From Moesziomyces globuligerus (taxonomy: Eukaryota > Basidiomycota > Ustilaginomycetes > Ustilaginales > Ustilaginaceae), in contig JARVLF010000012.1 of NCBI GenBank assembly GCA_030849465.1, positions 62,001-126,000 on the forward strand: 64,000 nt of DNA, in the 5' to 3' direction. The position numbers and the translations under genes are program-made. This document shows, piece after piece, positions 56,657 through 63,223 of the stretch. Positions within the stretch are counted from its first letter, which is position 1. Each line of letters starts with the position of its first letter. The notes beneath the pieces are model-generated. The model searched no databases and was not told the DNA's origin. It saw only the letters and a program-made list of their open reading frames with translations.

Positions 56657-57549
56657 GGCTGGTCGAACGTAGGATATCCACTGAGCTACAGAGCAATCGG
56701 CAGGTAGATAGGGCTTCGATGTGGCCGCGGATAGGATGTCGGATGTTTGAAGGTGGGAAGGCAAGGAAGAGCGGGAACGAAGGGCGGAGGCAGAGGAGAG
56801 ATGGGTAGCAGCCGGGATGGAGCAAGCAAGCACGCGGTGTTCGAGTGAGCCGAGGCGGGATGGCTGCAGCTCCTGTCCTCCACGAGAGGCGCAGCAAGGG
56901 ATGCTGCGTGCTGCGTGCTGCGAGTCTGCTGTGCAAGCTGCGATGAGCCAAAATTACATGTCTCGAAGCAACACACCAGCACCGAGCTGCTTTTGCCCAA
57001 GTGGAGTCGCGCACACTCCCGGTCCACTGCCCCAACCGGACTGATCACGAGATGTTGATTTAAGCACCGTCGCCTCGACGCGCTTATGAGGCGGAAATCT
57101 ACACGCTCGCCGCCGTTGTCTGCCCAGTCAGCTCCACGGATGCAAAGCAGCACACTGCACGCATTCGCGGATGTGCCCCACCTCGAGCCACACCGCTAGG
57201 AAGCGCACCATTTCTGCAAAGGCTTTTCTGACAGTGCCTTGCCATTTCGGCAGGATCCGACATCCTGAGCGGCCTTGCGCCAAAGACAAAGTTCCGAGGC
57301 GGGGAGCCAGGCTTTGTGTTACTTTTGGCAGTCCAGCACAACGCGGTCACGTGCCGGGGGCGGACGCTAGGATTTTTGCGAGGCGAGCGCTGAGCCTGTT
57401 GGCGGGAGGCGCGTGGCGCGCGCTGCAGTTCAATCAACACTTTCTCCACGCCGCGCCTCTGAAAGATCTCCACTTGATGCAGACCCTTCCGCTCTCCATC
57501 ATCCACCTCCATCTTGACATCACGCCGACGCGACCCACGAACGACCGAG
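56657..57549. promoter_or_regulatory. Divergent intergenic region Dbf2-like kinase/Spc25
   Basis: 893 bp between divergent start codons of two mitotic genes. It includes GCTGCGTGCTGCGTGCTGCG near 56899-56920 and CACGTG-like ACGTGCC near 57350. An MCB-like ACGCGT is not present. No other gene seen. Confidence 0.4.
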
Positions 57550-58386
57550 ATGGCTTCCGCTCCACGTCCTTCCGTCCTCGCCACGCCACGAAGGCCGTTC
57601 GGCTCCGTGGCACCCTCGAATGCAGAGATGCGCAAGGTCTACGCCGATCTCGACAACAACGCGGTCTTTGACTTTGCCAGCATCGTCTCGGCCGTCCGCA
57701 CCTTTTCCACCCGATTCCGAGCCTACACGGAGAATGCGATCTCCAACATCAACGACGACAAGGCCGAGTTCGATGCCAACCGCATGGAGCACCGCAACCA
57801 GCTCCGCACGCTCGAGCGCGAGATCGAGGATGCAAAGTCGAGCCAGGGCGAGCTGTGGGACACGATCGCGCACGAACGAGAGCAGGACGCCGACCTTCGA
57901 TCGCGCCAGCAGACGCTCCAGGCGCAGAAGGCTTCGGTCACCCAGCGATGCAACGAGCTCCAGACCGAAATCGCAGAGCTCAAGCAGATCCTCGAAAAGA
58001 AGAAGCTCGCCAAGGAGTCGCAGCGCGACAAGCTCAAGGAGCAGAGCGACAAGAACGGGCCCGAACTCCGCCTGCTCGAGTCCAAGACCGGCTGCTCCGT
58101 CGTACCGACCAAGGTGGGCGACCAGCTCAAGTTCACCTTCAACCTTATGAACGCCGACGACTGGTCCCAGGAGTGCCACTTTACCATCGACGTCAGCAGC
58201 ACAAAGTACAAACTCACCTCGGTCCAGCCCAAACTCGAATCGGGTCTCCAGGAGTCTCTGCTGCAGGAGCTCAACTCGACGCGCAAGTTCTACACCTTTG
58301 TAAAGAAGATGCGCGCCGCCCTCCGCGCACAGGTCGAGAAGGACCGTCTCGAGGCTCGCGACGCCGCCCGCCGCGGTGCAAGATGA
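57550..58386 (+). CDS. SPC25: Kinetochore protein Spc25 (Ndc80 complex)
   Basis: 278 aa, single exon. A short basic N-terminus (residues 1-30) leads into a long coiled coil at about 48-185 (for example TLEREIEDAKSSQGELWDTI and EIAELKQILEKKKLAKES). The C-terminal globular RWD-type domain at about 190-265 has the family pattern LKFTFNLMNADDWSQECHF ... YKLTSVQPKL. Spc25 pairs with Spc24 to anchor Ndc80-Nuf2 to the inner kinetochore. ATG 57550 is the first in-frame ATG and fits the family length. Confidence 0.88.
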   Translation: MASAPRPSVLATPRRPFGSVAPSNAEMRKVYADLDNNAVFDFASIVSAVRTFSTRFRAYTENAISNINDDKAEFDANRMEHRNQLRTLEREIEDAKSSQGELWDTIAHEREQDADLRSRQQTLQAQKASVTQRCNELQTEIAELKQILEKKKLAKESQRDKLKEQSDKNGPELRLLESKTGCSVVPTKVGDQLKFTFNLMNADDWSQECHFTIDVSSTKYKLTSVQPKLESGLQESLLQELNSTRKFYTFVKKMRAALRAQVEKDRLEARDAARRGAR

Positions 58387-58794
58387 GGCGCCGTATTGGT
58401 CTGTCGAGCTCGCATGTCTTGTTATCCTCGTTCTCCTGCTCCCTTCTGCTTTGATACCTCGCTTGTATTTGTACGCAATCTTTCACCTTAGCTTGTCCTC
58501 TATGCTTCATCTACGCTGTTCTCATGCGCATCCCTGGCTGTGCCCATGAACGGTGTCGAACGGACGGAGCCTGGACAGATGCAACCACCAACAATCTGCT
58601 GCAGCATCTTCCAGGCCCTGTGACTAGTAATGTCCCGGCTCATGTAGGTATCATCACGACCAGACGTAGAAGGCAACTCGACTCGCTCGCTATTTTTCGG
58701 CCTCTTTTTCGCTCTCCCTTTTTGGGCGAATTTTCCTTCTTTTCAAGAAGCAAAAAGCCTCGGCGATTCGAAATCCGTGGACGACGGTGCTCAC
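58387..58794. other. Intergenic region Spc25 to tRNase Z-TPK gene
   Basis: 408 bp between tandem genes; T-rich tract at about 58690-58745 just upstream of the next gene. No gene seen. Confidence 0.5.
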
Positions 58795-61350
58795 ATGCAC
58801 AACATCGAGACTTCTCCACATGCTGAGCTCTCGACCACCGCAGCGCCGACCCAACTGCGACAGAGCCGCTCGTTGCCTAGCGATCGCTGTACTCCTGGTC
58901 GCACCGCAGTCCATCCTCACCACCACGGCGCTCCAGGGAGCTGCGTCGCTCGAACGGCACCCCTCTTCATCATGGTGGCTCCACGCATCTCGCTCAAGTT
59001 CTTGGGCACCTCGTCGATGCCCAACTCGACGCGCAACTATTCGTCGCTGCTGTTCAAGCTCGACAGCCACACGGTCATGGTCGACTGCGGCGAAGGCACG
59101 CAGCGCCAGCTCCGGTCCCGCTACGTCGGAGGCGAAGAGCGTCTTGCCAATCTCAGGACGATCCTCATCACTCATCTGCATGCCGACCACGTCCTCGGCC
59201 TCGTCCCCATGCTCATGTCCATCATGGGTCCGTCGGGTGCTCCTTCCCCTGCAGAGAGCGCAGCGCCGAGAGTCGAGATCTACGGTCCACCGGGGCTGCG
59301 CGCGCTCTTACGCACCACACTCTCGCTCTGCTATGCGCAGCTAAGTGGCAAGTACGTCGTGCACGAATTCGTCTGGCCTACGCCCGATCAGCTAGGCCCC
59401 GAGGCGCCGCATGCGCTGCAGAACCAGCCCGAGCGCACAATACCCGATATGCCACAGCACGAAGGCGAGGCTAGCGGAGGTCGCAATATCGCCATGGATC
59501 CGAGATCGTCGAGCTGGCCGCACTTCCTCTCCATCAAGTCCTCGCCCCAGGCTCCTGGCGTGCGGATCAGTGCCGCACCCATCTCGCATCGATGTCCGAC
59601 GCTGGCGTACGTGTTTGAGGAGGAGGCGAGAGCTGCACCCCTCGATCCCAGCGTCACCGAAGCGCTCAAGCGCAACGCTACGGCCTTGCAGGAACAGCGC
59701 GGCATCCGGCATCCACTTTCGCTCCTCTCCACCCTCACCGTTCAGCGTCGCTCCGTGCACCTACCGGACGGCACGGTGATCGACCCGCCGCCGCTGGTCT
59801 TTCCGGGACGCAAGGTGACCGTGATGGGCGACACGAGCGATGGCACTGGCGGCTTTTCAGAGGCGCAGCTGCGTTCGGGCTGCGGACTGCCCTCGCTCGC
59901 CTATGGCTCCGACGTGCTGGTCCACGAGAGCACCAACATCGCTCTCCCAGCCCATCTCAACAAGAACGGCAAACCCGACTCGCTCGGAGAGATCACGGCC
60001 AAGGCGAAGCTGCGCGGTCACTCGGTGCCACAGATCGCCGGGCAGTTCGCTGCACTCGTCAACGCTAAGCGCCTCATCCTCAACCACTTTTCCACAAAGT
60101 TCCCCAGCCCACCGCACTACCTGCTCGACACCGCCGGCACCAGCTCGGCGTCGGCACAGGCGGTGGAAATCGCAAGTCAAGGCTCGAATGGAAAGCAGCT
60201 GGGCGATCCGGAACGGCGCGCGCGCATCATGAAGGAGTTCGAGGTGCAGGCCTTGCAGGTATGGCAGCAGAGCAGCAAGGTGGGAGCGCAGCTCGAGACC
60301 TACTCGGCCTTTGATGGGTTTCACTTTGAAGTGCCAGCTCGAGACCAGGAGACGGAGCAGGCTCAGCAAGATGGTAACGATGTCTTCGCCAGACCATGGG
60401 AAGGAGCAGAGGACGAGACGAGCGGTGGGAACAGCCTGAAGCGCAAGCACGCCGAGCAGGTGGGTCTCGATGAGGACAAGGTGTGGAATCCGTCTCCCTT
60501 CCTGCTCGCGGCCGCGGGCACGCCAGCACCGCTGTACGCGATGATCCTGCTCAACTCGCCCCTCGATGCACGCCAGGTGGGGCATTTCCAGCGACTGTGG
60601 CGATCCGCCTCGTTGCGGTTGTGCGCCGATGGCGCCGCCAATCGACTGCTGGACACATTTGGCGCTGCTGCCTTCGACGAGGCAGGCGGCGGCGAGGGAG
60701 GTCTTGCTCTGCCACACGCCATCCTAGGAGATCTGGACTCGATCCGAGCGGAGACGCGACATTTTTTCGAGTCAAAGGGCGTCAAGGTGCACGAGCGGCC
60801 TTCGCAATACGCCACGGATCTGCAAAAGACGATCCAGGAGGTGGAAGACGTGGAAGCCGCATGTGCGGAGGGGGAGGAGCATACGCTGATCATCTACGGC
60901 GGGCTGGCGGGGCGCTTGGATCAGAGCGTACACACGCTGCACGTTCTATGGCAGCTTGCGCCGGGAGCTGCGGATCTGGGCAGCGTCGTGGATCCGGACT
61001 CGCCCAACGAGCGGGGCAATCGGCTCCGAAAGCGGCGACGGACGTTTGCGATCGGCGACGGCAGCGTCGCCTGGCTGCTCGGCCCGGGCAAGCACACGCT
61101 CCGGATGGCGCGCGAGGTGATGGGCAGGACGTGCGGCATCCTCCCCTTGGGCGTGGGCAATGCGGGCGCTAGCGTGACCACCAAGGGCCTCGAATGGAAC
61201 CTCGAGCGCGACTCGACCACGCTGGGCGGCTTCCTCTCGACCTCGAACCACGTGCATGACGCGGCGGGTACAGTCGAGATCGAGACCGACGAGCCCGTCT
61301 ACTGGACCGTCGAGCTGCGTCCGGACGACGAGTGCAATCTGATGGCCTGA
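58795..61350 (+). CDS. Fusion protein: short-type tRNase Z + thiamine pyrophosphokinase
   Basis: 851 aa in one uninterrupted frame. The tRNase Z part (about residues 65-480) has FLGTSSMP.STRN, VDCGEGTQRQLRSRY, the zinc motif THLHADHVLG, SHRCPTLAY, the GDT of VMGDTSDG, VHEST and LNHFSTKF, that is, all metal ligands of the ELAC1/short type. A polar linker (about 500-575) follows. The C-terminal part (about 580-851) is thiamine pyrophosphokinase: LLNSPLDA, CADGAANRLLD, AILGDLDSIR, YATDLQKTIQEVE, IYGGLAGRLDQS and ITTK-like VTTKGLEWNL. Both catalytic modules look complete. tRNase Z removes 3' trailers from pre-tRNA; TPK makes thiamine diphosphate. Start choice: ATG 58795 adds a basic, acid-poor leader (possible mitochondrial targeting), while ATG 58972 (MVAPRISLKFLG) starts exactly at the domain. 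Confidence 0.9.
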   Translation: MHNIETSPHAELSTTAAPTQLRQSRSLPSDRCTPGRTAVHPHHHGAPGSCVARTAPLFIMVAPRISLKFLGTSSMPNSTRNYSSLLFKLDSHTVMVDCGEGTQRQLRSRYVGGEERLANLRTILITHLHADHVLGLVPMLMSIMGPSGAPSPAESAAPRVEIYGPPGLRALLRTTLSLCYAQLSGKYVVHEFVWPTPDQLGPEAPHALQNQPERTIPDMPQHEGEASGGRNIAMDPRSSSWPHFLSIKSSPQAPGVRISAAPISHRCPTLAYVFEEEARAAPLDPSVTEALKRNATALQEQRGIRHPLSLLSTLTVQRRSVHLPDGTVIDPPPLVFPGRKVTVMGDTSDGTGGFSEAQLRSGCGLPSLAYGSDVLVHESTNIALPAHLNKNGKPDSLGEITAKAKLRGHSVPQIAGQFAALVNAKRLILNHFSTKFPSPPHYLLDTAGTSSASAQAVEIASQGSNGKQLGDPERRARIMKEFEVQALQVWQQSSKVGAQLETYSAFDGFHFEVPARDQETEQAQQDGNDVFARPWEGAEDETSGGNSLKRKHAEQVGLDEDKVWNPSPFLLAAAGTPAPLYAMILLNSPLDARQVGHFQRLWRSASLRLCADGAANRLLDTFGAAAFDEAGGGEGGLALPHAILGDLDSIRAETRHFFESKGVKVHERPSQYATDLQKTIQEVEDVEAACAEGEEHTLIIYGGLAGRLDQSVHTLHVLWQLAPGAADLGSVVDPDSPNERGNRLRKRRRTFAIGDGSVAWLLGPGKHTLRMAREVMGRTCGILPLGVGNAGASVTTKGLEWNLERDSTTLGGFLSTSNHVHDAAGTVEIETDEPVYWTVELRPDDECNLMA

Positions 61351-62059
61351 TGGCGATGCCAGTACCAACCGCCAGTCTGGCAGAGTCGCTTGCTTGCGTG
61401 CAGTGCGTGTCGGCTGGAGACATGGAGAAATACGACTTATGTTAGAGTTTGCCAAACTATTTCATTACGGTTGCTCGCCGCCGCGCTGGCAGGAAGAAGC
61501 TCGCAGGAAGAAGCTCGCAGGAAGAAGCGCGAAGCAGGGTTGAAAATGAGCAATACAAATCGCGCACGAGAGAGCTTTTGAATTGCAGCGCGCGCTTAGC
61601 GTGGCGTGTCGCTATTCAAACCAGCCAAGCGAAGCCGTTTTGGCGAGGCGGACGGACGTGCATGCGTGCGTGCGTGAGTGCGTGCGTGCGTGCGTTGGAG
61701 CGATGCGGTTGCGTTGCGTGTGCGGCTGAGTGCAGTTCAAGAGCAAAGGCCAGCAAGAAGAGGGTGCTCGTGCGCAACACTCAGACATGCCAGTGCGAGA
61801 GAACACCCTCTGCGCCAGCGCTGCACATGATCCCTCATCCAACCACCTGATCACCATCCTCTTCTTTGGCACCAAGCTTTTGCTGCCTCCCACACGCACA
61901 CATACGCGACTGCGTCTACGTATCTCGTTCGCTCGGAGCTCCCCCCGCATCGCACCTCCCGGTTGAAGCGCGCTGCTCGACCAAAAGGCCTTTCGGGCTT
62001 CTGCACCCCCACCACCTCCCCACAGCATCGCCACCATTTCGTCGGTCATCAACGCAAGT
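61351..62059. other. Intergenic region upstream of the septin gene
   Basis: 709 bp. A GCAGGAAGAAGCTC 14-mer repeat occurs near 61487-61530 and a (GTGC)n run at about 61659-61697. The DNA next to the septin ATG is C-rich. No gene seen. Confidence 0.5.
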
Positions 62060-63223
62060 ATGGCCTCGCGCCGTCGCGCGGCCAAGAAGGGCCAGTCGTT
62101 CTGCCTCATGGTCGTCGGCGCTTCCGGCACGGGCAAGACCACGTTTGTCAACACGCTCTGCGAATCCGAAGTCATCGGCCACAAGGTCAGCGACAACCCC
62201 GAGACCGCCCACATCGAGGAGGGCATCCGCATCAAGCCCGTCAACGTCGAGCTCGAGGAGGATGGTCAGCGCATCGGCCTCACCATCGTCGACACGCCCG
62301 GCTTCGGCGACAACATCGACAACGAATATGCGTAAGTCTTGGTCTCCTCTCGCCTCTCGACGTTGCCAACCTTGGTCGACGCGACGCTGACATGCCTCTC
62401 CTCTTTCCTCCACAGCTTCTCTGAGATCGTCGGCTTCCTCGAGCGACAGTACGACGACATTCTCGCCGAGGAGTCGCGAATCAAGCGAAACCCGCGATTC
62501 CGCGACAACCGCGTCCACGCCGTCCTCTACTTTATCACGCCCACCGGCCACTCGTTGCGCGAGATCGACATTGAGCTCATGCGCAGGCTCTCGCCGCGCG
62601 TCAACGTGATCCCCGTCATCGGCAAGGCCGACTCGATGACGCTCACCGAGAGGCAAGACTTTAAGAAGCGCATCATGGAGGACGTCGAGCACTACGGCAT
62701 CCCGGTCTACAACTTTCCCTACGACGTCGAGGAGGACGACGAGGAGACGATCGCCGACAACTCGGAGCTGCGCGGCCTCATGCCGTTTGCCATTGTCGGC
62801 TCCGAGGAGGACGTGGTGGTCAACGGCGAGCCGGTGCGTGCGCGCAAATACCCCTGGGGCATCGTCGAGGTGGACAACCCCAAGCACTCGGACTTTGCGC
62901 GCCTCCGATCCGCGCTGCTCATCACACATCTCAACGACCTCAAGGAGATCACGCACGACTTTCTCTACGAAAACTACCGCACCGAGAAGCTCTCGAGGAC
63001 CGTGCACAGCGACTACGCCGACACGTCGATCCCGGGCGAGGAGCTCGCCAACCAGTCGGTGCGCCTCAAGGAGGAGCAGCTCAAGCGCGAGGAGGACAAG
63101 CTCAAGGAGATCGAGCTCCGCGTGCAGCGCGAGATCCAGGAGAAGCGCCAGGAGCTCCTCGCAAAGGAGGAGAGCCTCAGGAACCTCGAATCGCGTCTGC
63201 AGGCCCAGAACATCAACGAGTAA
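62060..63223 (+). CDS. Septin GTPase (probably Cdc11/AspA type)
   Basis: Exons 62060..62331 and 62416..63223; 359 aa. P-loop GASGTGKTT (about 20-28), switch II DTPGFGD (about 79-85), then the exon junction in NEYAFSEIVGFLERQYDD. AKAD-equivalent GKAD (about 165), septin unique element YPWGIVEVDNP (about 240-250). The C-terminal coiled coil (about 295-359) is short: EEQLKREEDKLKEIELRVQR. The short coiled coil and the KAAKKGQS-like basic N-terminus with little extension fit the Cdc11 group, though this is inferred. It assembles with other septins into filaments at the bud neck and septum. The intron is 84 bp. Confidence 0.92.

Follow-up and report, generated by a model that had tools for sequence, protein, structure and literature searches.

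The question raised by this locus is how an enzyme of tRNA and an enzyme of vitamin B1, which to our knowledge share no pathway, came to be encoded together, and what the resulting protein does. In the window (the whole stretch of 64,000 nucleotides of Moesziomyces globuligerus analysed here, positions 62001-126000 of contig C12 in a genome of 18.5 Mb and 24 contigs), a + strand frame that is uninterrupted from a GTG at 58777, or from its first in-frame ATG at 58795, to 61350 joins a short-form tRNase Z to a thiamine pyrophosphokinase (TPK). Such a joint frame had been proposed in an earlier note on this DNA and is borne out, the raw DNA being open and both halves giving domain matches; the interpretation offered there of the fusion as a whole is supported in part. 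The locus probably encodes a bifunctional housekeeping protein with two independent activities, joined once in the ancestor of the Ustilaginomycetes.

The fused gene and its two halves

The features of the gene are as follows.

58972..61350, + strand: tRNase Z(short)-TPK fusion gene, single exon, 792 amino acids (aa) (open frame, codon signal, start of 11 of 20 relatives' models)
58795..58971, + strand: in-frame upstream stretch, most likely an untranslated 5' leader (GC flat across codon positions, no preferred frame, weak start context)
58972..60120, + strand: short-form tRNase Z core, residues 1-383
59173..59190, + strand: HLHADH zinc-binding motif (ligand columns 68, 70, 72, 73)
59623..59775, + strand: flexible-arm (exosite) region between motifs III and IV, without PGP (alignment by eye)
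60121..60333, + strand: C-terminal extension of the tRNase Z half, common to unfused relatives (alignment)
60334..60483, + strand: linker, residues 455-504, largely disordered (predicted structure and identity to relatives)
60385..60402, + strand: FARPWE, conserved short linker motif ([FY][AS][RK]PWE in 11 of 16 fused rows)
60436..60450, + strand: LKRKH, basic linker patch, by eye like a nuclear localisation signal (LKRK in 10 of 16 fused rows)
60484..61347, + strand: thiamine pyrophosphokinase half, from W505
60586..60957, + strand: TPK catalytic domain PF04263 (Pfam)
61090..61299, + strand: TPK vitamin-B1-binding domain PF04265 (Pfam)

The tRNase Z half gave a Lactamase_B_2 match over the Pfam cut-off (E 6.2e-9), and human ELAC1 was its best PDB match by sequence. 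The NCBIfam RNase_Z match (E 1.9e-35, 122.4 bits) lies under the cut-off of 292.95 of a model that names bacterial and archaeal proteins, and the match to PF13691 (tRNase Z endonuclease, 12.2 bits) lies under a cut-off of 27. Because these two cut-offs were missed, membership in the short form rests on the fold, the ligands and the ELAC1 match. The predicted fold is that of ELAC1, with one catalytic unit and not the duplicated long form.

In an alignment of 61 rows, including 12 fused (one truncated) and 24 separate short tRNase Z rows, H68, H70, D72, H73, H206, D287 and H372 (HxHxDH and motifs III, IV and V) are invariant across all 24 separate rows and across the fused rows long enough to cover them; for ligand columns 68, 70, 72 and 73 these are 11 of 11 fused rows. 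The HEAT and HST loops are present as HE(S/C)T and GHS in 12 of 12 fused rows each. Of the PxKxRN loop, P, R and N are kept; the window has PNSTRN, with S replacing K. The core is the best-conserved part of the protein, with 79-84% identity to nine close relatives; the C-terminal extension shows 56-68%.

The arm region is present, with helices predicted at residues 226-234, 236-243 and 248-256 of the structure model, and by eye it contains PGP in none of the 12 fused rows and in 3 of the 24 separate ones. As separate short forms mostly lack PGP too, in agreement with the available part of PMC2942849, which describes fungal short tRNase Zs with atypical arms and still counts proteins without the GP motif as short form, this absence is not a result of the fusion. 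The same part gives 376-554 aa for fungal short tRNase Zs, a range that excludes the fused form, and its main text holds no mention of Ustilago. Short tRNase Zs are moreover placed there (2010) only in Basidiomycota, Chytridiomycota and Zygomycota, whereas they were seen here in Tuber truffles, which are Ascomycota (P0197, P0203, P0205).

The TPK half matches TPK_catalytic (PF04263; E 5.3e-27, 94.4 bits), TPK_B1_binding (PF04265; E 3.5e-15, 55.8 bits) and NCBIfam thi_PPkinase (95.9 bits), all over their cut-offs, and its best PDB matches by sequence are human and mouse TPK1. Judged from such scores, the strong matches in both halves are beyond chance. The catalytic and thiamine-binding motif residues CADG, GDLDS, TD..K, GG..GR.D, W and STSN are retained in the fused rows of the alignment that reach them.

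It was worthwhile to consider a gene-model artefact because other chimeric models of the same two enzymes, with different partners, exist in Ustilaginomycotina. This explanation was rejected, as the raw DNA shows an open frame and the alignment to 15 relatives runs on across the linker. The chimeric models with other partners (P0032, P0035-P0037, P0040, P0041 and P0047) look like merged neighbours. In P0035 and P0036, from two Malassezia species, tubulin-binding cofactor A stands in frame before the short tRNase Z, and these may be merged neighbours or a second fusion. Probably merged genes, too, are the single models P0032, P0037 (Ceraceosorus), P0040 and P0041, among which TPK is joined to an MgsA-type AAA ATPase, to TPR repeats or to Pil1, and tRNase Z to a mannosidase.

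Start codon and linker

Among 20 fused or N-truncated models of relatives, 11 begin at the codon matching ATG 58972, two begin 5 residues downstream and P0008 begins 12 residues upstream; five (P0011, P0012, P0014, P0016, P0017) are N-truncated. A codon model trained on the two adjoining genes, Spc25 and the septin exon, gave the fusion frame the highest score of all six in each of the tRNase Z core, the extension, the linker and the TPK, and found no clear frame preference at 58795-58971. From 58975 on, the fusion frame was top of the three + frames in 24 of 26 windows of 30 codons. The start context has -3 A and +4 G at 58972, compared with -3 C and +4 C at 58795. As the relatives' models, the codon signal and the start context agree, the real start is most likely ATG 58972, which would give a protein of 792 aa. 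The start at ATG 58795 given in the earlier note is therefore not upheld, and an N-terminal extension from it is judged unlikely for its missing codon signal and weak context; model P0002, which begins about 134 residues upstream of Met 58972, speaks the other way. No presequence was visible at the N-terminus on inspection by eye, no predictor being run. The flanking genes, the Spc25 kinetochore gene (57538-58383) and a septin gene (62060-63220), bear no relation to the fusion.

The linker had been placed at 60300-60530. A linker does lie between the halves, and its extent is set here at 60334-60483. It shows 29-49% identity to the nine close relatives, and the predicted structure (pTM 0.64) has pLDDT <50 at residues 479-499.

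Gene content of the genome

Profile searches of the genome, which ignore introns, found PF04263 in one place only, the fusion. The ribonuclease Z profile matched the fusion, a long-form tRNase Z on C20 (a 1169-aa frame with a PGP stretch and a zinc motif) and, weakly, C6 and C15. Given this separate long tRNase Z, the cell need not rely on the fusion for ordinary 3' processing of pre-tRNA. The genome also has matches to TMP-TENI, to Thi4, to DUF4743 (on C10), the domain adjoining Nudix in Tnr3-type enzymes, and to bVLRF1, the Vms1/ANKZF1 domain. Rfam gave no thiamine riboswitch match at 57000-63000 up to E 1, but this absence carries no weight, since the Thi4 locus, intended as positive control, likewise lacked a match up to E 0.01. 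Two sub-threshold matches to the riboswitch for thiamine pyrophosphate (TPP) turned up in the whole genome, where 49 of 580 candidates were scored: one of 31.1 bits on C18, the other of 19 bits on C6. The better one lies at C18:442991-443062, with E 0.0026 for the genome.

Distribution and origin

A search for relatives (58 listed, 7995 candidates scored) found PF12706 and PF04263 together in 17 of the 58 listed relatives, P0018, P0019 and P0020 of these being without PF04265; P0014, P0016 and P0017 are truncated models of the fused protein. The hosts are Sporisorium, Ustilago, Pseudozyma and Testicularia in the Ustilaginales and, beyond these, Thecaphora (Urocystidales, truncated model) and Violaceomyces (Violaceomycetales), the order having been looked up for four of these hosts. 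A smut-like fused protein under a Cichorium endivia record (P0019) is most likely assembly contamination.

The search with the TPK half covered 117 proteins of about 167-530 aa. Separate TPKs were found in Malassezia, Tilletia, Tilletiaria, Sympodiomycopsis, Jaminaea, Parajaminaea and Exobasidium, and further outside. Of the three entries nearest the window, none is a clear free TPK: P0059 (Melanopsichium) and P0016 carry tRNase Z residues, and P0060 looks cut. Free short tRNase Zs, among the best 120 of 1275, come from Meira, Tilletia, Tilletiaria, Exobasidium, Malassezia and others. Searches against relatives, as suggested in the earlier note, place the fusion in three orders and, among the 117 proteins, give no clear free TPK from a named Ustilaginomycete. 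The free Malassezia TPKs P0061-P0063, P0065 and P0088 carry the name ribonuclease Z, perhaps by name transfer from the fused protein.

In quick trees of 36 and 37 chosen rows, 12 of them fused, a single branch separates the 12 fused rows from the others for both halves; in the tRNase Z tree its SH-aLRT value is 95. The simplest reading would be that the fusion arose once, at the base of the Ustilaginomycetes, and this is firm for the tRNase Z half only. Horizontal transfer or repeated fusion is not supported, as in the tree of each half the fused rows fall together among those of Ustilaginomycotina, weakly so for TPK.

Whether old neighbours were joined was judged from eight species of Ustilaginomycotina in which both genes were listed as free; T. 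controversa and T. horrida were excluded for short or many contigs. The two genes lie on contigs differing in length in seven of the eight (Malassezia CBS 17886, M. vespertilionis, M. pachydermatis, Parajaminaea, Sympodiomycopsis, Tilletia maclaganii and Tilletiaria); in Exobasidium the contigs are both 5,450,147 bases long, and the locus tags differ by 497. This comparison, which is indirect as clusters can mix assemblies, shows no sign of adjacency, and a joining of old neighbours is not supported.

Proposed function and alternatives

In the mechanism that we favour, a short ELAC1-type tRNase Z gene and a TPK gene would have been joined once, nearly end to end, in the Ustilaginomycetes ancestor, both enzymes keeping their full domains and presumably their own activities. 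The TPK half would make thiamine pyrophosphate; no other TPK was found in the genome, so that it is hardly dispensable. As there is a separate long tRNase Z, the main processing of pre-tRNA 3' ends is probably not the task of the tRNase Z half. This half would most likely trim or repair tRNAs at their 3' ends, in the nucleus or the cytosol, as ELAC1 does; the human enzyme reportedly removes the 2',3'-cyclic phosphate from tRNAs cut during ribosome quality control. According to the available parts of the two papers, bacterial short tRNase Z is a homodimer (PMC2942849), and the yeast and Candida TPK, which is essential in S. cerevisiae and S. pombe, is a homodimer with its active sites in the dimer groove (PMC2515308). 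The joint may be tolerated because relatives of both enzymes are homodimers, and the fused chain could pair through both halves at once. The fusion would also fix a 1:1 ratio and place TPK under the tRNase Z promoter.

Several points weigh against this account. It is not certain that tRNA is the substrate of the tRNase Z half, since the arm is without PGP and the scores fall under the RNase_Z and PF13691 cut-offs. A split second TPK gene could be missed by searches that ignore introns, and many TPK entries have no host name and are not assignable to class. The TPK tree gives the branch of the fused rows, and with it a single origin, an SH-aLRT value of 37, and Violaceomyces P0020 is long-branched, without PF04265 and divergent at its end, where the divergence is probably a model error. 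In addition, internal transcription starts could still yield a TPK-only form.

That last point leads to the view that the locus yields two proteins, a separate TPK being released by proteolysis of the linker or made from an internal promoter or start, so that the fusion would be only nominal. An internal promoter or linker cleavage is possible, the linker being disordered and poorly conserved, and Met 420 precedes it with -3 A and is the residue at which the Melanopsichium TPK model begins. Nevertheless we hold this view to be unlikely: the joint frame is preserved across three orders, and in Testicularia (P0013) the TPK cannot start at an intervening AUG, as there is no Met between the tRNase Z core and TPK. 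Met 420, found in 15 of 16 fused rows, also occurs in 10 of 24 separate tRNase Zs and was rejected as a fusion-specific internal start. An arm without PGP, followed by a linker with the conserved FARPWE and a basic LKRK patch, would also suit a tRNase Z half that is no longer a nuclease and serves TPK as an RNA- or protein-binding, dimerising or locating module. Since the fused rows that extend far enough have intact zinc ligands and catalytic loops, the core is best conserved, and PGP is absent in 21 of 24 separate rows as well, such a loss of function is decidedly improbable.

Nothing in the present analysis shows coupling between the halves. The fusion seems to be kept, no clear free TPK from a named Ustilaginomycete being among the 117 proteins, and the two linker motifs are conserved among close relatives, which would agree with a thiamine or TPP state sensed by the TPK half tuning tRNA 3'-end repair, or the reverse. 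The low pLDDT of the linker and the pTM speak against this, as do the free genes, which look unlinked in sister groups; moreover, we know of no link between the thiamine and tRNA 3'-processing pathways, and we consider such tuning very improbable. Just as little probability is given to its stronger form, in which thiamine or TPP binding, relayed via joint dimers and the conserved linker motif, would set tRNase Z activity or location as a class-wide link from vitamin to translation. Finally, the metallo-beta-lactamase half might have been recruited for a task in thiamine chemistry, such as the cleavage of thiamine phosphates that are adenylated or damaged, like the Nudix half of Tnr3-type fusions. 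There is a precedent for damage-control hydrolases linked to TPK in PMC4921024, whose available part lists Tnr3/Nudix, thiamin and pyrophosphatase. The ELAC1 fold and tRNase Z loops of this half and the separate DUF4743 match on C10 make this extremely improbable.

Implications and comparison with known systems

The preferred reading, two independent enzymes in one chain, describes a fusion that is stable in three orders and locks to a tRNA enzyme the sole TPK that the genome search found. It could serve as a natural experiment on fusions between unrelated housekeeping enzymes: these may be neutral accidents, or they may point to a connection, in this case one of vitamin B1 with tRNA repair. 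As breaking the tRNase Z frame would also remove TPK, single-gene phenotypes at the smut locus could be misread. The fusion is in addition a candidate class marker for Ustilaginomycetes.

No paper pairing both enzymes by name was found, nor, among the titles listed in broader searches, one on this fusion, in a literature coverage mostly outside subscription papers. PMC10158824 mentions Ustilago as well as gene fusion. The annotators of the orthologous Sporisorium reilianum protein of the same architecture (P0003) had already named both enzymes, 'related to Ribonuclease Z / related to thiamin pyrophosphokinase 1', in a record title rather than a study.

Compared with ELAC1 and other short tRNase Zs, the tRNase Z half differs by its arm without PGP, its longer C-terminal extension and the attached TPK. 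The TPK half differs from TPK1 and Thi80 by sitting on the C-terminus of another enzyme, without an evident start codon of its own. The Tnr3 architecture of fission yeast joins a Nudix/DUF4743 part to TPK. It resembles the smut protein in attaching TPK to a hydrolase in a fungus; however, the Tnr3 partner acts in thiamine metabolism, whereas the smut partner is a tRNase Z without a known thiamine role, carrying a metallo-beta-lactamase domain by Pfam, the DUF4743 match lying instead on C10. Tnr3/Nudix is the entry listed in the available part of PMC4921024. The Schizosaccharomyces joining of Hal3 to a thymidylate synthase domain, as described in the available part of PMC9604783, is likewise a fungal union of enzymes from unrelated pathways, although its domains are unrelated to those of the smut protein.
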